Part shown: piece by piece, positions 2,473 to 32,329 of the stretch
Layout of the letters: each line of letters starts with the position of its first letter
How positions within the stretch are numbered: position 1 is the first letter of the stretch
Assembly (NCBI RefSeq): GCF_014696135.1
Contig: NZ_JACJPP010000002.1
Location: 1 to 64,000 of the forward strand
Direction of reading: 5' to 3'
Length of the DNA stretch: 64,000 bases
Source of the DNA: Nodosilinea sp. FACHB-141
Lineage (GTDB): Bacteria; Cyanobacteriota; Cyanobacteriia; Phormidesmidales; Phormidesmidaceae
The notes under the pieces: generated by a model
Databases searched by the model: none
Told to the model about the DNA's origin: nothing
What the model saw: the letters and a program-made list of their open reading frames with translations, nothing else
Position numbers and translations under genes: made by a program

Positions 2473-4641
<2,169 letters not shown>

Positions 4642-4965
4642 TACTCGCCAAGCTAGTTGTGATTAGCCCTGGGAACCTAGAACTCAGGATCTCAGGCTTA
4701 AGACAAACCGTGAACCATACACCTTAAACCCCAAACCACTACCAACCCATCACTACTGACTCGACAATCTACTCAAATTAGTAATCTAATTTTCGCCTCT
4801 AGGGCGGGGCAGCGCTAGCATAGAAAAATCCATCCCTCTCTATAGAAAATTGGCCACCTAATAGGGGCGATAATAGTATCTGAGTGATACAAAATGAAGT
4901 AATCCCCTGATTTGCAGCCTTAGGGCTTGAGCCGAGAATATCGGTGATGCCATGCCACAGAGCCG
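4642..4965. other. Intergenic region, no gene seen
   Basis: About 450 bases separate ligA from the start I favour for the EAL gene. I see no coding frame, tRNA or clear terminator. The part around 4670-4740 is rich in short CCTTAAACC-like runs. Confidence 0.4.
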
Positions 4966-5088
4966 TTGTTAACCAAATATCCGTACTTATGCTCTTGGCC
5001 TGGCCAAATTATCGGGTTACGTCTAGAACCATCTGAAACTGAAATCGTCTTAAGTACTGCTGCGGAATACTGTTTGGAGTACCGCTCA

Positions 5089-6351
5089 ATGGTTGGACAA
5101 CTGGGTCCGGACCCGATAGCTAACAAGCTATCGTTGCTCCCTTACGTCTTTTTGTCGGCATCTAGTGCTGAGGGAGAATCGATCGATGAGGTCGTGCTCG
5201 ATGCTCTATGCGCCATTCGCCTCTACCTCGATATGGAGGTGGCGTTCATTGCTGAATTTTCGGGTGGTAGACGCCGATTTCGCTATGTCGATTCATCTTT
5301 AGAGCATCCACCAATCGCCGTGGGTGACTCAAACCCGCTCGAAGAGAGCTATTGCCAACGCGTTGTCGATGGTCGGCTGCCAGAGCTGATTCAAGATGCC
5401 TCAGCAATCCCGGCGGCGCTAGAACTACCGGTCACTATGGACCTGCCGGTGGGAGCCCACCTCAGCGTGCCCATCCGCTTGGGAAACGGGCAGCTCTACG
5501 GAACATTCTGCTGCTTCAGCACTCGGCCCGACTTTACCCTGGGCAATCGCGACCTGTCCATCATGCGCGTGTTTGCCAATTTTGCTTCCCGCCAAATTGG
5601 CCGAGAGCTAGCCACCCAGCGCCAGTACCGAGAGATGCGCCAGCGCATTGTCTCAGTGCTAGAGTCTGAAGCGTTTACCATCGTCTACCAGCCGATTGTT
5701 CACCTAGGAGACAACAGAATCATCGGCTTCGAGGCGCTGACCCGGTTTTGGTCTAGGCCCATTCGCACCCCTGATGTGTGGTTTAACGAGGCGGCTGACG
5801 TGGGCCTCAGCGAAGAGTTGGAGATGGCGGCGATCGCTAAGGCCCTCACGGGCTTCGACCAACTCCCCGACGATATCTATTTGTCTATCAACGTCTCGCC
5901 TGACAACATCTTGAATGGCGCTATCCATCGAGCCCTCCACAATGCGCCGCTCGATCGCATTGTGCTGGAGGTCACTGAGCATGTGCCCATTCCCGACTAT
6001 TCCCAGTTCGGCCAAGCCCTAGCACCCCTGCGCGATCGCGGCATTCGCCTCGCCGTCGACGATGCTGGCTCGGGCTACGCGAGTTTCCTGCACATTCTTA
6101 AGCTCAAGCCAGAAATCATCAAGCTCGACATCGGACTCATTCGCGATATTGATACCGACCTTAACCGCCGCGCCTTAACCGCTGCGCTAGTCGGGTTCGC
6201 CCAAGAAAGCGGCAGCCAACTCGTCGCCGAAGGGGTAGAGACAGCCCCAGAGTGCACCGCTCTAAAGCAGCTTTGCGTCAACAAAGCGCAGGGATATTTG
6301 CTCGGGCATCCCCTACCGATTGGCGAAACCGCAGCGCTGTTCCAGGGCTAA
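5089..6351 (+). CDS. GAF-EAL cyclic-di-GMP phosphodiesterase
   Basis: A cytosolic two-domain protein of about 420 residues that should hydrolyse c-di-GMP to pGpG. An N-terminal GAF-like sensory domain (about 15-180) precedes an EAL domain (about 185-420). The catalytic signature is complete: EALTR, an Asn in SINVSP, the Glu in LEVTE, DDAGSGY (usual form DDFGTG), the Lys in KLDIG, and the Glu in AEGVE. Catalysis is therefore expected, although this rests on motif reading only. The frame extends 41 codons upstream to a TTG at 4966. The ATG at 5089 has a GGAG ten bases before it and starts where GAF homology begins, so I use it. With the proteins at 32526, 39980 and 44258 it belongs to the c-di-GMP toolkit of this window. 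Confidence 0.85.
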   Translation: MVGQLGPDPIANKLSLLPYVFLSASSAEGESIDEVVLDALCAIRLYLDMEVAFIAEFSGGRRRFRYVDSSLEHPPIAVGDSNPLEESYCQRVVDGRLPELIQDASAIPAALELPVTMDLPVGAHLSVPIRLGNGQLYGTFCCFSTRPDFTLGNRDLSIMRVFANFASRQIGRELATQRQYREMRQRIVSVLESEAFTIVYQPIVHLGDNRIIGFEALTRFWSRPIRTPDVWFNEAADVGLSEELEMAAIAKALTGFDQLPDDIYLSINVSPDNILNGAIHRALHNAPLDRIVLEVTEHVPIPDYSQFGQALAPLRDRGIRLAVDDAGSGYASFLHILKLKPEIIKLDIGLIRDIDTDLNRRALTAALVGFAQESGSQLVAEGVETAPECTALKQLCVNKAQGYLLGHPLPIGETAALFQG

Positions 6352-7150: not shown

Positions 7151-9058
<1,908 letters not shown>

Positions 9059-9245
9059 GGGTTTTGCGCAAATATTGAGCAGGCAACTAGCCTCAGTCGT
9101 TTGCTGGCGCGCTAGGGGCTGTCTTGGTGCGCCGCTGGGTTCCCTGACCGATGAATTCTAAGACCGCCAGGCTATCTTGGAGAAGCCTACGCTATATATA
9201 TGAATAGCCTGAAGCAAGCTTAGCGCTAGATGCCCCTCTAGCTAA

Positions 9246-10208
9246 ATGATGCCGAAAGACCTGTCATACTACGCCAAAAAGTTTGCGAAGCTGAACGTCA
9301 ACAAACATAGAGAGCGAGGGGCGGCTCCTCATGAGCCTGTGCTCTTGATTTCAGTCATTGAATTAATTGATCAGGGCAAGATTCGACTGAATCAGGTACC
9401 GCTGTCACCAGAGCTAATCTCGACGTTTCTGAAGTATTGGCGCAGCCTAGTAAGAACGGATCACCGCTCTGATATCTCACTACCATTTGTGCATTTGACG
9501 GGGGATGAGTTTTGGCACCTAACGTTTTACCCTGAGAGCGAAACGGCAACACCGACGGGGTTGGGCCGCAAGGGCGTTACGGCTGTTAGACGCATTGTTC
9601 AATACGCGTCTTTTGATCCTGAGCTATCTGTCATCTTGCAGGACCCAGGACAGCGAGTAATCTTGCTGCGGGTGCTGATTGATAGCTGGTTTTCAGGGCG
9701 ATCAAATGAGATTGAGCAGCTGTCACTAATCGATGAGTTTGAGTTGGTGAAAACCCAGCTTTTGCGAGAAGGCGGGGCAACTTACAACGTTGAGGATTTG
9801 AAGAATGAGGAGAATATCGTTGTCAGGAATGGGGCGTTTCGCAAGATTGTGGTGTCGCTTTACGACCAGCGCTGCGCATTTTGTGGGTTAAGGATTATCA
9901 GCGCTGATGGGCAAGATATTGTAGATGGTGCCCACATCAAGCCGTTTTCTGAGTTTAGGGATGATCGCTTTGTAAATGGGCTGGCGCTCTGCAAGAACCA
10001 TCATTGGGCGTTTGACCATGGCTGGTTTGGGGTGGATGACGACTACCGAATTGTGATTCCGCAGGAGCGGTTTATGGAGGAGCCAGCGGTGGAGAGTCGG
10101 GAGATGGTGGCATTTAGGGGTGAGGCGATCCGCTTGCCGGAAGAGCGAGAGTTCATGTCCAGTTTAGAGGGTTTGAGGTGGCATCGGGAAAGGTGGAGGA
10201 TGGAATAA
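9246..10208 (+). CDS. HNH endonuclease, probably phosphorothioate-DNA-dependent restriction enzyme
   Basis: 320 residues. The C-terminal half is an HNH nuclease: C210-x2-C213, H230 in DGAHIKP, N244, C249 and H252/H253 in CKNHH, consistent with a beta-beta-alpha-metal site braced by zinc. The N-terminal 170 residues (HEPVLLISVIELI, LSPELISTF, LPFVHLTGDEFWHL) resemble the sulphur-binding domain of ScoMcrA-type enzymes that cut phosphorothioate-modified DNA. That architecture is known as a type IV restriction enzyme directed at Dnd-modified DNA. No dnd or ssp modification gene is in the window, which fits an enzyme that attacks foreign modified DNA. The nuclease is clear. The sulphur-binding assignment is from memory of the family. 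The gene opens the accessory region. Confidence 0.75.
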   Translation: MMPKDLSYYAKKFAKLNVNKHRERGAAPHEPVLLISVIELIDQGKIRLNQVPLSPELISTFLKYWRSLVRTDHRSDISLPFVHLTGDEFWHLTFYPESETATPTGLGRKGVTAVRRIVQYASFDPELSVILQDPGQRVILLRVLIDSWFSGRSNEIEQLSLIDEFELVKTQLLREGGATYNVEDLKNEENIVVRNGAFRKIVVSLYDQRCAFCGLRIISADGQDIVDGAHIKPFSEFRDDRFVNGLALCKNHHWAFDHGWFGVDDDYRIVIPQERFMEEPAVESREMVAFRGEAIRLPEEREFMSSLEGLRWHRERWRME

Positions 10209-10250
10209 CCAATTTGTCAAAAGGAAGTAGCCCACATTACAAGGGACATC

Positions 10251-10554
10251 ATGGTACTGCAGGCAGCGCCACTGGATGAGCGGGTAAAAACCCAACGAAA
10301 CAGCATTTTGAATATTGCTGAGCGTTATGGTGCTTATGATATGTGGGTGTTTGGGTCAGTTGCCCGCGGTGAGAGCCACCAAACCAATGATGTTGATTTT
10401 TTATGGAGATGCCGCCAAGGCACAGCCTGTTAGATCGCATTTCCCTAAAGCAAGATTTGGAAGTTTGCTAGGATGCCGGGTGGATGTGGCAACTCTTAGG
10501 ACACTGCATGAGTGCGTTAATGACAAAATCTTGCAGGATGCCAAGCCACTATAA
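10251..10554 (+). pseudogene. MNT-type nucleotidyltransferase, two frameshifts
   Basis: The first frame gives an N-terminal MNT (minimal nucleotidyltransferase) domain with GSVARGE and the metal-binding DVDF. After DVDFL (about 10403) the homologous continuation (MPPRHSLLDRISLKQDLE) is in another frame. From about 10465 it moves to a third frame (LLGCRVDVATLRTLHE, ending KILQDAKPL). Each change is explained by loss of one base, near 10404 and near 10465. Stitched together the protein would be about 100 residues, the usual size of an MntA-like antitoxin. No HEPN partner is visible downstream. Either the gene is dead or both single-base gaps are sequencing errors. The first follows a run of six T. 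Confidence 0.75.
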
Positions 10555-10735
10555 ATGGGGATAGACTTTACCTGAATAATTTAGAGTAGGCTAGCGGGAA
10601 GCGTTGAGGGAGCAGGGGGGATGCACTCGTTAGAAGTTTATATGCTGCTGCGGCTAGCCAGGTCAGTATGCGAGAGAAAGTAGCACTTAGGAGCGAATCG
10701 ATCAGACCATTTAAACATAAGTATTTTGGATCACC

Positions 10736-11368
10736 ATGAGTCAATCTAAGCTTTTCAATATAAGTAACGCCCTAGCATTAGCAATTGGCTTGTTTGTTGA
10801 CCTTATAGCTATCCATGAGTTGCTCAACAAAACCAACACAATTGAGGCTGACGGAAATTTAGGCTTATCAGCCATTTTCTTCGTTAGCTCAGTATATCTT
10901 TTGATTTTTGCTGGAATAGGGACTAGAAGATTCTTTCACAGTCGAGCAGAATCGTCATCATCGAAATTCTTGAGTCAAAAAGCTTTCAATGAGATTGAAA
11001 AAGTAACATCACTCACTCAATATCTTCTAGCAATTCCTTGCGGGATTCTTTTTGCAATAATTCTTCCTTGGGATGAGATACTAGGTTTTTGGCTTTATGA
11101 ACATCCTCTAGGTTCTTTTTTTTGGAGTGCTAGCGATGCTTTTATTCAATTTTTCCTTTTGCTTCTCTTCTTATATGTCATCGTGGAAATATCCAGGTAT
11201 TCCTCTAGAACTTTTTATTTGTCGTTGACACCCAGTTACCGGGTTAGAGTTCCTAAGAAAAATTTGGACTTAAGTCCAGCTACCGTAATGCTAGAGAGAC
11301 AACAGAGGAAGAAGGATTCCCAATTACGAAGTTGGGAAGCGCAAGAAGACGATAATTTGAATACATAA
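10736..11368 (+). CDS. Unrecognised AT-rich membrane protein
   Basis: 210 residues that I cannot place in a family. About four hydrophobic segments (residues 8-28, 46-65, 97-117 and 131-152) suggest an inner-membrane protein. A basic C-terminal tail (SYRVRVPKKN onward) is probably cytosolic. Its DNA is clearly richer in A and T than the flanking genes and almost lacks HIP1 sites, a sign of recent transfer. It lies between a dead nucleotidyltransferase and a dead toxin-antitoxin locus. Confidence 0.55.
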   Translation: MSQSKLFNISNALALAIGLFVDLIAIHELLNKTNTIEADGNLGLSAIFFVSSVYLLIFAGIGTRRFFHSRAESSSSKFLSQKAFNEIEKVTSLTQYLLAIPCGILFAIILPWDEILGFWLYEHPLGSFFWSASDAFIQFFLLLLFLYVIVEISRYSSRTFYLSLTPSYRVRVPKKNLDLSPATVMLERQQRKKDSQLRSWEAQEDDNLNT

Positions 11369-18806: not shown

Positions 18807-19718
18807 CTATTTGAACCAGGTCTGTTGCAGCGCGGCGGCATCCCAGTTGGCTAAATTAGCAGCAGCCTCATAGGTGCTGTGCAGAAATTGCAGCAGCGCC
18901 TGGTCAGGGTCAGCGGCCTCGCGTACGGCATCGTAGGGCAAAACAAACTCCCCTAGCCCCTCATGAAAGAAGGCTGCCTCCGGCTGAACCGGCGCATCCT
19001 TAAACCCCTCCGGTACCGGATAGGCATAGGAGTAAAAGGCCGGGTAGCCTAGGCCCATCCCCGGCCAAAACCCAGCGCTGCTCACCTCTTGGCAGTAGGC
19101 TTCCTTAGCAACATCGTCGGGCAAGTTGGGCACACCCCCGCCATGCTCCGGTGCCGGTCGTCCCGAAAACCGTGTCACCGCCAGATCAAAGCTGCCCCAA
19201 AAAAAATGTACTGGGCTCACCTTGCCTGCAAAGTGAGAGCGAAACTCCCGAAAGACGCGATCGCTCTGCAACAGCACCCGCCAAAACCGCTGCGCCGCAT
19301 CGGCGTCGTAGGCCCCATGGGTTTCATCTTGCTCAAAGGGAATCGCATCCGGGATTTCATTAGGCGTAGTGTGAATGCGAACGGCAATATTCAGCTCTGC
19401 CAGGGCCGCCATCACCGCCTGATAAAAGTCAGCCACCGACCGAGGCCGTAGCTCAACCATTTTCACGCTGCCTTCGCTGGTGGCAATGCGCAGCTGGTGA
19501 TCAAAAAAGTCGAAGTCGATCTGAAAAATTTGATCCGCGCTCGGAATAGTACTTGTTGTCAGGCCCCGCGCAGTCAAATATAGCGGCACATGCCAAGAGT
19601 GATTAATCCAGGGCGTTTGCACCAGCCGAATTTTACCCACAATTTGAGTCCACAGGTGCAGCGTGGCGTAGGTGTCTTGCCAATCATCGAGAGGTAGCTG
19701 TGGCCAGACGTTAGGCAT
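18807..19718 (-). CDS. DUF5996 family protein
   Basis: 303 residues with the DUF5996 hallmarks: WPQLPLDDWQDTYATLHLWTQ at the N-terminus, LTARGLTTS, IDFDFFDHQL, the middle HFFWGSFDLAVTRFSGR, and the C-terminal motif YPVPEGF. The family is widespread but has no known reaction. No signal peptide or membrane helix, so cytosolic. The gene stands alone, convergent with hdeD across about 150 bp. Confidence 0.85.
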   Translation of the reverse strand: MPNVWPQLPLDDWQDTYATLHLWTQIVGKIRLVQTPWINHSWHVPLYLTARGLTTSTIPSADQIFQIDFDFFDHQLRIATSEGSVKMVELRPRSVADFYQAVMAALAELNIAVRIHTTPNEIPDAIPFEQDETHGAYDADAAQRFWRVLLQSDRVFREFRSHFAGKVSPVHFFWGSFDLAVTRFSGRPAPEHGGGVPNLPDDVAKEAYCQEVSSAGFWPGMGLGYPAFYSYAYPVPEGFKDAPVQPEAAFFHEGLGEFVLPYDAVREAADPDQALLQFLHSTYEAAANLANWDAAALQQTWFK

Positions 19719-21779: not shown

Positions 21780-22515
21780 GCCTTCTCTCCAAATGTTTTA
21801 GTAGGCAACCAGTGCCTTTTCCTTACAATCAAACAATAACTAAACAAGCTGAGTTGGCGAGACCACCCAAAGAGATAGTTGGCCTTTGTCTAAAGGCATA
21901 CATAGGTTTTGGTGGCCAAAATTACTGGTACTTTGTTGGCTTTTTCGCGTTTTGCCCACCTACTTCCTAGGGTTGAGCGTCAAGCAAGGTTTATGAACGG
22001 CAGGTCAGCCATGCTAATAGCCAGTGCAGTTCTAAGGAGTCTCGTTAAGTTGACTGGGCACCAGTTTTCTTGCCGCATAGGGCGTGTGGTCAATTCAGGC
22101 CAAAATCCTGTTCCTATCAGCATTACCCCGCCCAAAGAAGATTAGGGACCGTAACTGCTGACGCTTGAGCCGTCGCAATCAATGGACGACACCCCTAGAC
22201 AGTATGTCTAATTTAGGCAACAAACCGTTGGCCTCCTTGGCTATAAGGTCAAACTCTAAAGCGGCTCGGTTTAGTTCAAGGCGCTGGGCAGCAGTGCTTT
22301 ACTGGGCAAATGGCTCACCTGACAAAAGGTTTAGGGCTAGGTCAATTGGGGCATCTTGAGACGATGCATCTCGTCAACTGTTTTTTGTGGATGATTCTGC
22401 TTTAGCTTCTGGCGGCGTGCTGTCAGGACCGAGATCGATTCACTTGCTATAGCGCAGCACCAACGGGCCGCACAGGGCGGCAACTGACAGACTCACGCTT
22501 AGAGGTCTAACCCCC
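21780..22515. other. Long intergenic region, no gene supported
   Basis: 736 bp. Two short plus-strand frames (21909-22145, 22165-22359) lack ribosome-binding sites and similarity. The minus strand shows interrupted protein-like stretches around 22190-22350, possibly an old relic. No RNA gene seen. Confidence 0.35.
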
Positions 22516-24441
22516 ATGACGTCTTTCACCCCCTTCGACCGGGCTCAGCCGCGAGCGGCCTACATCACCCACATTGGCAAATGTCTGCCGGGAGACCCGA
22601 TCGCCAACGATGAGATGGAAGCCTATCTAGGCCAGGTAGGCGATCGCCCCTCCCGAGTCAAGGCCCGCATTCTCAAAAGCAACGGCATTCAGCAGCGCTA
22701 CTACGCCCTCGATCGCCAGCAGCAGACCACCCTCAGCAATAGCCAGATGGCGGCAGCCGCGGTGCGAGACACTTTGGCCCAGGCTGAGCTAGACCCCAAG
22801 ACCATTGATCTGTTAGCCTGCGCCACCACCTGGCCCGACCTGCTGGTGCCGGGCTTTGCCAGTATGGTGCATGGGGAACTGCCGGAGCTGGCCTCGGTAG
22901 AGGCGACCTCTCACCAGGGGGTGTGCTGCGCTGGCGTGGCGGCGCTCAAATACGCGGCGGCCCAGGTGCAGCTGAGTCAAAAGCGGCAGGCGATCGCGGT
23001 GGCCTCAGAACTGGCCTCGCGGTTGTTTAAGCACACCCGGTTTGAGGCCGAAACCGCCCATCAAGCGCGGGCTGCCCTGCCCTTCGACACCGAGTTTCTG
23101 CGGTGGATGCTGTCGGATGGCGCGGGGGCCTGCTTGGTCAGCGATCGCCCCAGCGCTAGCGGCCTCAGCCTCAAAGTCGAGTGGATTGAGTCGGTCTCCC
23201 ACGCCAACTCCCATCCGCTGTGCATGTATGCCGGGGTCGATACCCCCACGGCGCTGACCAGCTGGATGGACTTTCCCGATCAGGGGGCAGCGGCAGCGGC
23301 AGGAGCACTCAACCTGCGCCAAAATATTCGTCTGCTCGACCAGGTTGTGCAGCTGGGCGTGGAGGGCTGGATCAGGCTGATCGAAGCTGGTCGGGTGCAC
23401 CCCGACCAGGTGGACTGGCTGCTGTGCCACTACTCGTCACATTTCTTTCGCAGTCAAATCATCAATCTGCTTGAACAGGCGGGCTGCATGATTCCTGAGG
23501 AGCGGTGGTTTACCAACCTCTACACCCGGGGCAACACCGGCTGCGCTTCAATCTACCTGATGCTGGAGGAGTTATTTAACTCGGGCAAGCTGTGGCCAGG
23601 GCAGCAGATCTTTTGCTTTGTGCCCGAAAGTGGCCGGTTCACGACCGCCTACATGCTGCTGACGGTGGTGGAGGCGACTGGGCCAAGCCAGGATTTTAAC
23701 GCCACGCTGCTGCCGGCCACTGCGGCGATCGCCTCCCCTGACCGTCCCCCCTCAGCAACCGCTGCCCTGGAAACCGAAACCCCTGACACAGTCTCTGAAG
23801 CGCTGTTGCGCCAGCTGATGCTGGTGTGGCTGACCTTTGAGCGAGAGCTGCGGTCCGTCCCCATCGTCAGGCGATTGCACCGGGGGGAGTTTACCCTCGC
23901 AGACTACCGGGCGCTGCTGCGAGCCTTGCGCCCCCAGGTGGTCGATGGCGCCCGGTGGATTGCCCGAGCCGCGTCAAATATGACTGACTTTGAGCTGCGA
24001 TCGCACCTGATCGGCCACGCCCGCGACGAGCACCGCGACTTTCAAATGCTGGAGCGCGACTACGTCTCGGTCGGGGGGCAGCTCGAAGAGATTCTGGAGG
24101 CTGAGCAAAACATTGGTTCAGAAGCCCTATCTTCCTTTATTTTCCAGCGCGCTTCCCGCGAAAACCCGATTGATCTACTGGGCAGCATCTTCATTGTGGA
24201 GGGGCTGGGCAACCGCATGGCGGGCCAGTGGGCTGCGCTCATTCAACAAAGCCTGGGGTTAGATAAGACCCAGATCTCCTTCCTCAGCTACCACGGCGAG
24301 AACGACGAGGCCCATGTGCAAAAGCTCGATGCCTTTCTTAATGCCGACTGGATGACGGCGGCGATCGCCGCCCGCATTGTCAAAACGGCCCAGGTCACCG
24401 CCCGCCTGTACCGCCTGCAACTAGAAGAGATTGACCTATGA
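22516..24441 (+). CDS. Ketoacyl-ACP synthase III fused to haem-oxygenase-like diiron oxidase domain
   Basis: 641 residues in two catalytic modules. Residues 15-390 are a KAS III (FabH/OleA-like thiolase fold) with a plausible C138-H305-N340 triad (GVCCAG, CHYSSH, RGNTG). A Thr/Ala/Pro-rich linker spans about 390-425. Residues 428-640 match the iron-containing redox family with a haem-oxygenase-like fold (UndA, CADD and BesC are members). Likely iron ligands are in HARDEHRD (H501, E505), VEG (E562) and HGENDEAH (H593, D597, H600). A plausible role is to condense or bind an acyl chain and then oxidise or fragment the product. The substrate is unknown. The stop overlaps the next gene by four bases. 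Confidence 0.85.
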   Translation: MTSFTPFDRAQPRAAYITHIGKCLPGDPIANDEMEAYLGQVGDRPSRVKARILKSNGIQQRYYALDRQQQTTLSNSQMAAAAVRDTLAQAELDPKTIDLLACATTWPDLLVPGFASMVHGELPELASVEATSHQGVCCAGVAALKYAAAQVQLSQKRQAIAVASELASRLFKHTRFEAETAHQARAALPFDTEFLRWMLSDGAGACLVSDRPSASGLSLKVEWIESVSHANSHPLCMYAGVDTPTALTSWMDFPDQGAAAAAGALNLRQNIRLLDQVVQLGVEGWIRLIEAGRVHPDQVDWLLCHYSSHFFRSQIINLLEQAGCMIPEERWFTNLYTRGNTGCASIYLMLEELFNSGKLWPGQQIFCFVPESGRFTTAYMLLTVVEATGPSQDFNATLLPATAAIASPDRPPSATAALETETPDTVSEALLRQLMLVWLTFERELRSVPIVRRLHRGEFTLADYRALLRALRPQVVDGARWIARAASNMTDFELRSHLIGHARDEHRDFQMLERDYVSVGGQLEEILEAEQNIGSEALSSFIFQRASRENPIDLLGSIFIVEGLGNRMAGQWAALIQQSLGLDKTQISFLSYHGENDEAHVQKLDAFLNADWMTAAIAARIVKTAQVTARLYRLQLEEIDL

Positions 24442-25343
24442 CCTATACCCCCGTGCCCCACAACCGGCAAGACCCTAACTATTGGGATGCTATCTATGCC
24501 GACTGGGCCATCCCCCTCGACCCCACCGCCAAGGCCTACATGGTCAAAGACCTGCAAAGCTGGTCGCGCTCCTACCTGCTGCTGCCGATCAAGCTCTTCG
24601 CCAACCTGGTCATGGCTTTGATTATGACGCTCAAGCGGCTCTTGCCCTTTCAATTTCGCAACTACTGGCTGATGCACCAGTTAGCCGTCTGGTTTCTTAA
24701 CACCTTCACTACTCCCGAAGCCTGCTACCTGATTGTGCGCCACTTTGCCATTGGCTCTAATATCGTCAATTTTTTAATCGACAATGGCCCCGACCCGACC
24801 CTGCCCCACGCCACTCTCTACCCTCGCCGGGTGGAGGACCTGGCCGCTAACGCTTTTTTAGAGCACGACATCAACCTCTACAACTTTGTGCTCGACTATC
24901 ATCGCGCCCAAGAGCAGCACCCCAATTGGCTAGAGAGTGTACGTCAGCGAGGGCTCAGCTATGGGGGCATCCGCCCGGTGTCCGTCGAGATCGACATCAC
25001 TCGGCGGGGCTGGCTCCAGGTGCTCGATATGGAGTCCTCCCTGGAGCTGTTCAAGATCTGCTATTCCCTCTGGGTCACCAGCGACGAGTTTGAGCGGGCA
25101 GTGCTTTCCCTTCAGTTCGACGAAAGTTTTGCCCTCTACTTTAGCCGGGTAACCGGCGACTACGCCTGGAACCACACCGTGAAGAACCGCCATCCCCTGG
25201 CTCCCAACAGCCCCTTTGGCTCAGCCCGCAATCTGCTGCTGCACGGTCTGGCCTCAGAGTCGCTCCAGCGCTATTTGGAGCTAGCCACGGCGGATAGCTG
25301 CCCTGAGGCTAAAGCTGTCGCAATAAACCGCGTTGCTCCTTAA
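24438..25343 (+). CDS. Unrecognised partner of the KAS III-oxidase fusion
   Basis: 301 residues starting inside the stop of the preceding gene (ATGA), so translation is probably coupled and the two products work together. I cannot name a family with confidence. A hydrophobic segment at about 48-67 (LLLPIKLFANLVMALIM) and aromatic-rich helices suggest membrane attachment. The stretch FLEHDINLYNF (140-150, with E142, H143, D144) and H155 could bind metal, but no complete motif is evident. The C-terminal half has SVEIDITRRGWL and a YAWNHTVKNRHP segment. A role on a lipid or fatty-acyl product fits the neighbour and is inference only. Confidence 0.7.
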   Translation: MTYTPVPHNRQDPNYWDAIYADWAIPLDPTAKAYMVKDLQSWSRSYLLLPIKLFANLVMALIMTLKRLLPFQFRNYWLMHQLAVWFLNTFTTPEACYLIVRHFAIGSNIVNFLIDNGPDPTLPHATLYPRRVEDLAANAFLEHDINLYNFVLDYHRAQEQHPNWLESVRQRGLSYGGIRPVSVEIDITRRGWLQVLDMESSLELFKICYSLWVTSDEFERAVLSLQFDESFALYFSRVTGDYAWNHTVKNRHPLAPNSPFGSARNLLLHGLASESLQRYLELATADSCPEAKAVAINRVAP

Positions 25344-30513: not shown

Positions 30514-31000
30514 GGTCAATGGGCGTAGCCTATCAGTACGGTCTATAAGACTTAAGGTAGCGTCTTGCGATTGAGGCAAGCGGCGCGCTGAGGTAGAGAT
30601 TAGCAGTCAGTGGATGCCTTACATTAAATCCCGAGCTAATGTCCCCCGATTTGTAGGGACGTAGCATGCTACGCCCCTACGGGGTTCCTGATTACGAATT
30701 GGGGTCTACCAAATCGGATTTGGTATTAGATGATCTGCCCTAAGGGATCCACAAATTAGAGTTCCGCTTGAACCTCATTTTTGGGGAGAACTTTGAACCT
30801 GGATAGCCTATTTGTTATCGGTACTGGCGACTTCTTCCAGGGTGAGTGGGCGCGTGAGGGCCACAGGCAACAAAAGCCTCAGCAGACTCCGCTTCAAACT
30901 GCCTTACCGTTCTTTAAAGGTAGTGCAATATTGGGCTGCCATGCTGCGCTCGCTAGGGGTGTGGGGGGAATGCTTAAGAAGCCATTCCTCAAGGTTATAC
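30514..31000. other. Intergenic region holding a dispersed repeat
   Basis: Contains copy 1 of the 100 bp repeat (30625-30727) and the upstream region of the papain-like protease gene. An open frame reaching 30812 runs into that gene, but its first 63 codons show no similarity. Confidence 0.5.
30625..30727 (+). repeat. Dispersed 100 bp hairpin repeat, copy 1
   Basis: Aligns without gaps to 51392-51494 at roughly 80% identity. The core GTAGGGACGTAGCATGC-TACGCCCCTAC folds into a near-perfect 28 bp palindrome (30653-30680). The end reads AAATCGGATTTGGTATT. Looks like a non-autonomous miniature element; no transposase here. Confidence 0.75.
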
Positions 31001-32329
31001 ATGTTTACGCAGACCCGTAAGTTTCGCATTGGCGGTTATCAGCCGGGGCAAAAGCCGGACGACGTTAAGCATCACCAGATTGGCCGATTTGGGAAAGAGG
31101 AGTTGCCGGGCCGGGTCGATTTGCGCCACCACATGACTGAAGTGGAAGCGCAGGTGGGCAACAGCTGCGTAGCCAATGCCTTTGTAGGGGCCTACGAATA
31201 TCTGGCCAAGCGCGATCTGGGTGATGCTGGTAACGTCAGCCGTCTGTTTGTCTATTACAACGCGCGATCGCAAACCGGTAGCCACAACGAAGATGCTGGC
31301 ACACAGATGCGTTGTGCGATCGAAACCCTAATGCAGCACGGCGCCTGCTCCGAAGACCTCTGGCCCAATGACGAAGAGCTAATCTTCACCGAGCCTGACA
31401 CCGGGGCTTATGACCACGCCTCTAACTTCAAAATTGTCGAAACCGAGACCATCGATACCGACCTAGACCTCTGGCGACATACATTAGCTGAGGGCTACCC
31501 GATCGCCTTTGCCCTCAACACTTTTGAATCGTTTGACGAGGCCACCCGCAACAAAGGCCGCGTCCCTCAGCCCAAGCGCTCCGACAACGTGCGCGAAACC
31601 CACGGTTGGCACGCTATGCTCTGCGTCGGCTACTCCGACAAAGACCGCTTCTTTATCGTGCGCAACTCCTGGGGGCCAGAGTGGGGCGATCGCGGCTACT
31701 GCTACATTCCCTACGACTACGTCATCCACGACGACTACAACGGCCACGACTCCTGGATTATCAAGTCTCTCAGCGATCTCGACTTTAGCGCCGAAGTTTG
31801 GGAAGAGGACGAGTCATTCTTCGCCGATGAATGCTCGCTCTTGCTATACGACTTTTACATTCATACCGAAGACCCCGAAGGCTTCACCGACGCGCTTGCC
31901 GCCCTCTGCCTCACCTACGTCGAAACCGAAGACGACTACTACTTCGACTACGACTACAACGAAGACGAAGGCAGTCCCTATTTACTCAACATCCTCAACT
32001 TTGACCTCAGTGTTGAGGACGGTACTGAGTTTGTTGCCGAGCTAGACGCTCTCTGCCAAGAGTACGCCGTTGATGAATCTTATAGCTTCGGCTACGGCAG
32101 CAGCGACGAAGAAGCGACTGAGGAAGACGAAGCCGTAGAAGAAGAATCCGAAGAAGAGTACGCCGAGGAGGAATCTGAAGAAGAGTACGCTGAAGAGGAG
32201 TCTGAGGAAGAATACACCGAAGAGGAATCCGAGGAAGAGGAATATTCTGAGGAAGATGAGGAGGAGTACGCCGAAGAAGAATCCGAGGAAGAGGAGTATT
32301 CTGAGGAAGAGTACACCGAAGAAGAATAG
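31001..32329 (+). CDS. Papain-like (C1) cysteine protease with acidic tail
   Basis: 442 residues from the ATG at 31001 (AAGG 9 bases upstream). The C1 fold is complete: Q51 and Cys56 in AQVGNSCVANAF, His204 in GWHAMLCVGY, Asn222 in VRNSWGPEWG. No signal peptide or propeptide is visible, so it is probably an intracellular, uninhibited form, as in other bacterial C1 enzymes. Two similar segments of about 45 residues follow (280-320 and 327-365: LLYDFYIHTED…FTDALAALC and LLNILNFDLSVED…FVAELDALC). The last 74 residues are almost only Glu, Ser, Tyr and Asp with an 8-residue period (SEEEYAEE). The substrate is unknown. Confidence 0.88.
   Translation: MFTQTRKFRIGGYQPGQKPDDVKHHQIGRFGKEELPGRVDLRHHMTEVEAQVGNSCVANAFVGAYEYLAKRDLGDAGNVSRLFVYYNARSQTGSHNEDAGTQMRCAIETLMQHGACSEDLWPNDEELIFTEPDTGAYDHASNFKIVETETIDTDLDLWRHTLAEGYPIAFALNTFESFDEATRNKGRVPQPKRSDNVRETHGWHAMLCVGYSDKDRFFIVRNSWGPEWGDRGYCYIPYDYVIHDDYNGHDSWIIKSLSDLDFSAEVWEEDESFFADECSLLLYDFYIHTEDPEGFTDALAALCLTYVETEDDYYFDYDYNEDEGSPYLLNILNFDLSVEDGTEFVAELDALCQEYAVDESYSFGYGSSDEEATEEDEAVEEESEEEYAEEESEEEYAEEESEEEYTEEESEEEEYSEEDEEEYAEEESEEEEYSEEEYTEEE

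Follow-up and report, generated by a model that had tools for sequence, protein, structure and literature searches.

We analysed a 64,000-nucleotide stretch of DNA (hereafter the window) from Nodosilinea sp. FACHB-141 (contig NZ_JACJPP010000002.1, positions 1 to 64,000, forward strand), in which a gene that fuses a ketosynthase to a haem-oxygenase-like oxidase domain overlaps a gene for a DUF6999 protein. These three parts, which we call the trio, recur in the same order in several phyla and are, on gene content and conserved residues, a new variant of the pathway of DarB kind with an unusual oxidase and DUF6999 as a third protein. By the same sequence evidence, the window pair represents this three-part system in its fused form, which is the usual one in cyanobacteria. 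We propose, tentatively, that the trio makes a ring from two fatty chains by a DarB-type condensation and then oxidises it with an iron oxidase instead of DarA, which we regard as quite possible. An anonymous gene pair thus becomes a defined pathway found across many phyla.

The first module of the fusion is a ketosynthase of the ketoacyl synthase III (KAS III) type and of StlD/DarB kind, by both profile and fold. The NCBIfam StlD/DarB model NF005293 scored 444.3 bits against the whole protein and 446.7 bits against the domain alone, under its curated cut-off of 450. Elsewhere the same model gave 427.5 bits (L140) and 374 bits (L147) in trios and 551.4 bits in a lone cyanobacterial ketosynthase (L158; L and G mark our loci and genomes). 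Against the dialkylresorcinol DarB model NF053539, the window ketosynthase scored 388 bits, under the cut-off of 550; none of another 14 trio genomes or records exceeded this value, and the lone L158 ketosynthase was also under it, at 506 bits. The closest solved structure was StlD (5gk0; phmmer against the PDB, E 4.4e-82), and StlD also came top when the AlphaFold model of the fusion (mean predicted local distance difference test, pLDDT, 72.2; predicted template-modelling score, pTM, 0.55) was searched with Foldseek (E 1.1e-27, 38% identity in the alignment). Among the matches listed, the best FabH-type and OleA rows followed at 1.4e-14 and 5.0e-14, so that the comparison with OleA made in a preliminary description of this DNA gives way to one with StlD.

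That description had also named a catalytic triad of C138, H305 and N340. The histidine and the asparagine stand, but the nucleophile is C137, because C137 is invariant whereas position 138 may be C, A, G, S, T, N or L. The corrected Cys-His-Asn triad was found in all 66 ketosynthases aligned, 31 from trios and 35 of DarB type. The trio members retain the residues common to all aligned DarB-type sequences, and the two groups are not told apart by any column with a fixation of at least 90% in each; for these reasons, a DarB-type condensation is the likeliest activity of the module. The known products of ketosynthases of StlD/DarB kind are cyclohexanediones and resorcinols.

Among 388 genomes of the cyanobacterial class, the ketosynthase was present in 60 and DUF6999 in 59, with both in 56; because the genomes are related, these are not 56 independent events. 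The edges of the two matches lay within 300 bases of each other in 48 of the 56 pairs, within 1 kb in four and 3.4 kb apart in one, and were on different contigs in three. The genomes with a ketosynthase and no DUF6999 were G242 and G279 (lone ketosynthases), G294 (internal stops, cut short) and G387 (a 61% complete assembly), while those with DUF6999 and no ketosynthase (G298, G143 and G330) all had partial DUF6999 matches. Three cyanobacterial loci are also described here for their own sake. The G294 locus (L162, 3889-5499) holds a stop-broken fusion, shortened in the oxidase domain, in a genome without a DUF6999 match, and looks like joint decay. At L161 (G165, 3786-4735), an insert of about 1 kb lies towards the end of the ketosynthase domain, and a frame within the insert is weakly, below threshold, UPF0236-like. 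In a single cyanobacterium (L160, G215, 2644-5803), four co-directional genes of the CDP-alcohol phosphatidyltransferase, cytidylyltransferase, acyltransferase and methyltransferase (PF12147) families separate the fusion from DUF6999, and the other loci among L077-L166 yielded no relatives of these four.

A DUF6999 profile search of named genomes gave 130 relatives, the best 80 of which were retained as loci, and extended this picture beyond the Cyanobacteria. The oxidase and DUF6999 lay on the same strand and in the same order at 72 of the 80 loci, in six or more phyla, and were preceded by ketosynthase sequence at 70 of the 72, the other two (L144 and L148) beginning inside the gene. Ketosynthase and oxidase shared one reading frame at 57 of these 72 loci. 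Fused forms came from Acidobacteria, Paenibacillus, Corallococcus and Splendidivirga records, and separate frames from records titled Sorangium, Microbulbifer, Acaryochloris, Alphaproteobacteria and Eremiobacterota. On a Pseudoalteromonas plasmid, all three are separate genes, which the record names ketoacyl synthase III, iron-containing redox enzyme and hypothetical protein. Seven of the remaining eight loci belong to genomes with a ketosynthase elsewhere or on another contig, and one (G421) shows none. DUF6999 was found in five of 289 alphaproteobacterial genomes, with the trio in order in all five. In a control genome, Caulobacter vibrioides, family searches, which do not address adjacency, placed DUF6999 and Haem_oxygenas_2 over their cut-offs and the DarB model under its own. 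The two window genes had been described as one unit, and their adjacency is borne out in both surveys. Alignments A3 to A5 comprise 21, 23 and 19 sequences selected from these loci, and L148 and L139, being partial, were omitted from some alignments.

We then compared the genes beside the trio ketosynthases with those beside DarB-type ketosynthases. In the Bacteroidia, a DarB-type ketosynthase was found at E 1e-60 in 41 of 198 genomes, at 46 places: 39 scored 460-694 bits in frames of 377-423 residues, five scored 374-417 bits in frames of 616-635 residues, and two were fragments (G602; set aside). Neighbours were examined at 33 of the 39 (L221 repeats L184). A DarA-like gene lay beside 23 of them and was absent from the available flank at 10, and neither an oxidase nor DUF6999 was seen beside any of the 33 (flanks of 1.5 to 5 kb). 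The four Bacteroidia fusions that were fetched had DUF6999 next and no DarA-like gene, and a fifth (G409, L150) has the trio. The DarA-like query was one cyanobacterial protein (L158:7974-8915), identified as DarA by position and likeness only, since it had no NCBIfam or Pfam match and only weakly (E 9e-4) matched 2mwm, which is named a putative trp repressor binding protein. Both lone cyanobacterial ketosynthases have the DarA-like gene, one being the source of the query, and the G242 locus also has a glycosyltransferase. At E 1e-10 the query matched three of the 388 cyanobacterial genomes and none of the 56 with both trio parts, and this single query found no match in the window's genome.

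In a tree of the 66 ketosynthases, the 31 trio members fell on one side of a branch with 100% support by the Shimodaira-Hasegawa-like approximate likelihood-ratio test (SH-aLRT; a quick method, without bootstrap). On the DarB-type side, 25 of the 35 ketosynthases lie beside a DarA-like gene and none beside an oxidase or DUF6999 in the available flanks. The distances of the three trio proteins correlate over 28 loci (r 0.85, 0.72 and 0.72; 0 of 2000 permutations as high), and do so more weakly over the 17 loci outside the main cyanobacterial group (r 0.77, 0.47 and 0.57; 0, 0 and 2 of 2000 permutations). The trio sets out a natural experiment, in which apparently the same ketosynthase chemistry is completed by DarA in one case and by an iron oxidase with DUF6999 in the other.

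The DarA/DarB dialkylresorcinol pathway is known from flexirubins, 2-hexyl-5-propylresorcinol and bartoloside-type cyanobacterial clusters (PMC8406957, PMC3992019, PMC6403133; papers cited here by PMC number are represented by excerpts). According to these excerpts, 2-hexyl-5-propylresorcinol is made by neither darA nor darB mutants (PMC6403133), heterologous expression of darB and darA yielded a dialkylresorcinol (PMC3992019), and the DarB product is a 4-carboxy-2,5-dialkylcyclohexane-1,3-dione (PMC5515871, citing Fuchs et al. 2013). Haem-oxygenase-like dimetal oxidases can decarboxylate, as UndA does, and desaturate (PMC13108848).

In the route that we propose, the ketosynthase, carrying an acyl chain on C137, would condense a beta-ketoacyl chain with an unsaturated acyl chain as DarB does and close the ring; the family resemblance predicts a 4-carboxy-2,5-dialkylcyclohexane-1,3-dione as the product. 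The oxidase domain, with O2, would then oxidise this compound in place of the aromatase DarA, using a metal held by some of H501, E505, D508, E562, H593, D597 and H600. A UndA-type loss of the C4 carboxylate as CO2 together with a C5 hydrogen (the beta-hydrogen) would create a ring double bond, and the result would tautomerise to a 2,5-dialkylresorcinol, all in one step. Because the 4-carboxy compound is a beta-keto acid able to lose CO2 by itself, the fusion could help by passing this labile intermediate to the oxidase before unaided CO2 loss. DUF6999 would act together with the oxidase or on its product. The suggestion already made for this DNA is supported in so far as the condensation of acyl chains and, probably, the oxidation of their product would lie in one polypeptide. 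A bolder version is unlikely to hold as a whole: a widespread bacterial ring-lipid route whose iron oxidase, with unusual ligands, would perform a UndA-like oxidative decarboxylation on a cyclic beta-keto acid, decarboxylating and aromatising in one step so that DarA is dispensable, with DUF6999 as a new, near-constant partner and with ketosynthase and oxidase forming one channelled polypeptide in many lineages.

The 301-residue protein, for which no family could be named before, belongs to Pfam DUF6999 (PF22523; 343.6 bits against a cut-off of 27, E 8.5e-103). Its model is all-helical (mean pLDDT 87.9), and it has one strongly hydrophobic stretch, at about residues 44-65, which outranks any other in the window protein and does so in five of six further proteins checked; DUF6999 is possibly membrane-associated. 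Handling of a lipid-like substrate, the role suggested for this partner earlier, is a conjecture. R101, H102, H143, D144, D197, E203, R220, D228 and H269 are among many polar residues that are invariant in 23 DUF6999 sequences from several phyla. Fold searches gave a best E of 0.89 with Foldseek against the PDB and a best Z of 3.3 with VIA, values that are not proof of a new fold, and the DUF6999 profile found a single chance-like match among PDB sequences (E 0.1). The idea that DUF6999 might be a diverged duplicate of the oxidase domain was also considered and rejected (hhalign probability 0.4%).

These features bear on an alternative division of labour, in which DUF6999 aromatises the ring and the oxidase acts on ring or chain in some other way, by hydroxylation, ring cleavage or quinone formation. 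We consider this rather unlikely. DUF6999 accompanies the oxidase nearly everywhere and has many invariant polar residues, and the gene context leaves the replacement of DarA undivided between the two proteins. However, sequence and fold searches link DUF6999 to no redox family, although weak or missing matches prove nothing, and the known tie to two-electron oxidations belongs to the oxidase domain, which is the part that our proposed route assigns to aromatisation.

A conserved fourth gene was sought by clustering the open frames of the 80 loci, and the largest neighbour cluster after the trio itself reached 13 of 80. A fatty acid hydroxylase cluster adjoins the trio at L150 (7270-8079, Bacteroidota), L141 (7132-7896, betaproteobacterial) and L140 (11016-11708, Paenibacillus); its Pfam name rests on L150 only, and the L140 copy is on the opposite strand. 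Of the loci tested, single ones had a short-chain dehydrogenase, a LysR regulator, a methyltransferase or a flavin amine oxidase as a neighbour. The presence of a fatty acid hydroxylase family gene at three loci and of a lipid gene cassette inside the trio at one, together with the conversion of dodecanoic acid into 1-undecene by UndA (PMC13108848), would fit an OleA-like condensation to a beta-keto acyl product, which the oxidase then cleaves to an alkene, ketone or hydrocarbon-like lipid. Against this stand the far closer match of StlD than of OleA in both fold and sequence and the retention of the DarB-type residues described above, and we hold such a route to be improbable.

The oxidase domain matches Pfam Haem_oxygenas_2 (PF14518) over residues 475-632 (32.6 bits against a cut-off of 28.9, E 9e-8) and is all-helical in the AlphaFold model; in the fold search with the whole fusion, ketosynthases fill the best 50 rows. 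The separate Pseudoalteromonas oxidase (L157) gave no Pfam match at 0.001. Six iron ligands had been named for this domain (H501, E505, E562, H593, D597 and H600). All six are invariant in 21 aligned oxidase domains from several phyla and, with the catalytic triad, in 22 fusions, but D508 is invariant in the 21 domains as well and the helix 1 order is atypical. Characterised enzymes of the superfamily carry the motif E-H-E-H-(D/E)-H, its first two residues on helix 1 (PMC11363339, in excerpt). E562, H593, D597 and H600 fit the second half of this motif and the first half deviates: helix 1 reads H501-x3-E505-x2-D508, with no conserved Glu ahead of a conserved His. In a profile alignment to 3dde, a haem-oxygenase-like structure, E505 lies opposite a Glu and D508 opposite a His, and H501, as judged from the alignments, may substitute for the missing His.

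The candidate ligands and the cysteine triad are thus kept in the homologues, with one exception. The L104 fusion (8586-10879) lacks residues 375-564, hence four of the seven candidates, and retains the ketosynthase and a whole DUF6999, which may reflect a deletion or an assembly fault in a metagenome-assembled genome; G159 is apparently the same genome. As a separate observation, the window's own genome has a second Haem_oxygenas_2 match (G000:C10:55863-56360, minus strand), which at 85 bits is stronger than that of the fusion and lies in a frame of 379 codons. The idea that the oxidase has lost its dimetal site through the helix 1 change from His to Asp, leaving a mononuclear or non-metal, possibly structural, partner, is quite improbable. 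In its favour, D508 lies opposite the second residue of a Glu-x2-His pair in 3dde, a single iron can suffice in this superfamily, as seen in FlcD (PMC11363339), and L104 has a whole DUF6999 without the part with helices 1 and 2. Against it, seven candidate ligands stay invariant in 21 domains from several phyla, among them an extra histidine, H501, one turn ahead of E505, and such conservation would not be expected of a dead site.

Several observations weigh against the route that we favour, a DarB-type condensation followed by oxidation by the iron oxidase. The NF005293 scores fall below the cut-off (444 of 450 here, and 428 and 374 in two others), so that the trio product could differ from that of DarB. 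In one Bacteroidia genome, G445, a DarB ketosynthase and a trio fusion occur together (L201, L214), and the trio therefore need not serve DarB's product. A DarA-like gene is missing from the available flank of ten of the 35 DarB-type ketosynthases, and the absence of matches to the DarA-like query in the 14 further trio genomes or records comes from a set without a positive control. Context cannot assign the aromatisation, because oxidase and DUF6999 replace DarA together. The unusual order of the helix 1 residues and the loss of oxidase sequence in L104 count in the same direction, and we know of no product, activity or metal content reported for any member of the trio.

The two open reading frames of the window pair and their ATGA overlap, as first reported, were confirmed (Table 1). 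In the fusion frame, no other start codon lies between the upstream stop at 22450 and the ATG at 22516, and the frame of 641 residues is not a product of chance, because stop-free runs reached at most 336 codons when 8 kb were shuffled base by base 200 times (one strand). No plus-strand frame of at least 100 residues was found within the kilobase upstream of the fusion gene. Downstream, the next gene starts 83 bases after DUF6999 and encodes, from the sequence read by eye, an M3-type peptidase, a cluster present at five of the 80 compared loci. Elsewhere in the window are a DUF5996 family protein (18807-19718, minus strand; 480.7 bits) and a protein with, by eye, a papain-type peptidase-like domain and long Glu-rich C-terminal repeats (30812-32329, plus strand).

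Table 1. Coordinates in the window of the fusion gene, the DUF6999 gene and their parts.
Feature	Coordinates	Strand	Remarks
Fusion coding sequence, 641 residues, ATG start	22516..24441	+	StlD/DarB-type ketosynthase and haem-oxygenase-like (iron-containing redox enzyme) domain
DUF6999 (PF22523) coding sequence, 301 residues, ATG start	24438..25343	+	All-helical in model
ATGA stop/start overlap of fusion and DUF6999 genes	24438..24441	+	
Ketosynthase domain, residues 15-386	22558..23673	+	NCBIfam NF005293 (15-385); PDB 5gk0, StlD (13-385)
Codon of catalytic Cys137	22924..22926	+	Invariant in 66/66 ketosynthases; pairs with a StlD Cys
Codon of triad His305	23428..23430	+	66/66; pairs with the StlD His replaced by Ala in 5gk2 (title: H302A mutant)
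Codon of triad Asn340	23533..23535	+	66/66 ketosynthases aligned
Interdomain linker, residues 387-427	23674..23796	+	Variable length, unconserved (22 fusions); pLDDT <50 at 389-423
Haem-oxygenase-like oxidase domain, residues 428-641	23797..24438	+	PF14518 (475-632); profile match to PDB 3dde, E 3.5e-11
Helix 1 ligand candidates H501, E505, D508	24016..24039	+	Each invariant in 21/21 domains
Helix 2 ligand candidate E562	24199..24201	+	Invariant in 21/21 domains
Helix 3 ligand candidates H593-x3-D597-x2-H600	24292..24315	+	Invariant in 21/21 domains

No description of the trio was found in the open-access literature searched (titles, starts of abstracts and passages), and subscription journals may hold one. 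The word DUF6999 was absent from this literature, and none of the literature matches listed describes, in title or start of abstract, a ketosynthase whose partner is haem-oxygenase-like or an iron-containing redox enzyme, which is a partly weak test. In a 2026 review of haem-oxygenase-like oxidases (PMC13108848), the words ketosynthase, ketoacyl, fusion, polyketide and resorcinol do not appear. A stress role by way of the desiccation protein DtpC (excerpts of PMC13232832) was also considered, and the trio data have no bearing on that lead. If the proposed route is true, haem-oxygenase-like oxidases would gain cyclic diketones as a new substrate class and DUF6999 would gain a pathway. Unreported lipids of resorcinol or dione type would then be expected in cyanobacteria, myxobacteria, Paenibacillus and Pseudoalteromonas, and perhaps in the laboratory model Caulobacter vibrioides, for which the indication comes from family searches and not from adjacency.

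Four known systems invite comparison with the trio. OleA has the thiolase/KAS III fold in common with the window ketosynthase and matches it far more weakly than StlD does. StlD, the ketosynthase of stilbene biosynthesis (PDB 5gk0-5gk2), was crystallised as a chain without a fused oxidase, unlike the window fusion; in stilbene biosynthesis the aromatising enzyme is StlC. The haem-oxygenase-like dimetal oxidases (UndA, BesC, SznF, CADD, AetD, PolF and MboA) share with the window oxidase the PF14518 family, the helix 2 Glu and the helix 3 H-x3-D-x2-H, whereas helix 1 here has H501, E505 and D508 in place of Glu...His, and a cyclic diketone would be the expected substrate instead of the fatty and amino acids of the known enzymes. 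With the DarA/DarB pathway, the trio has in common the ketosynthase family, its catalytic triad and the residues of all aligned DarB-type sequences; it differs in that no DarA-like gene was found with it, and a haem-oxygenase-like domain, often fused, and DUF6999 stand in its place.

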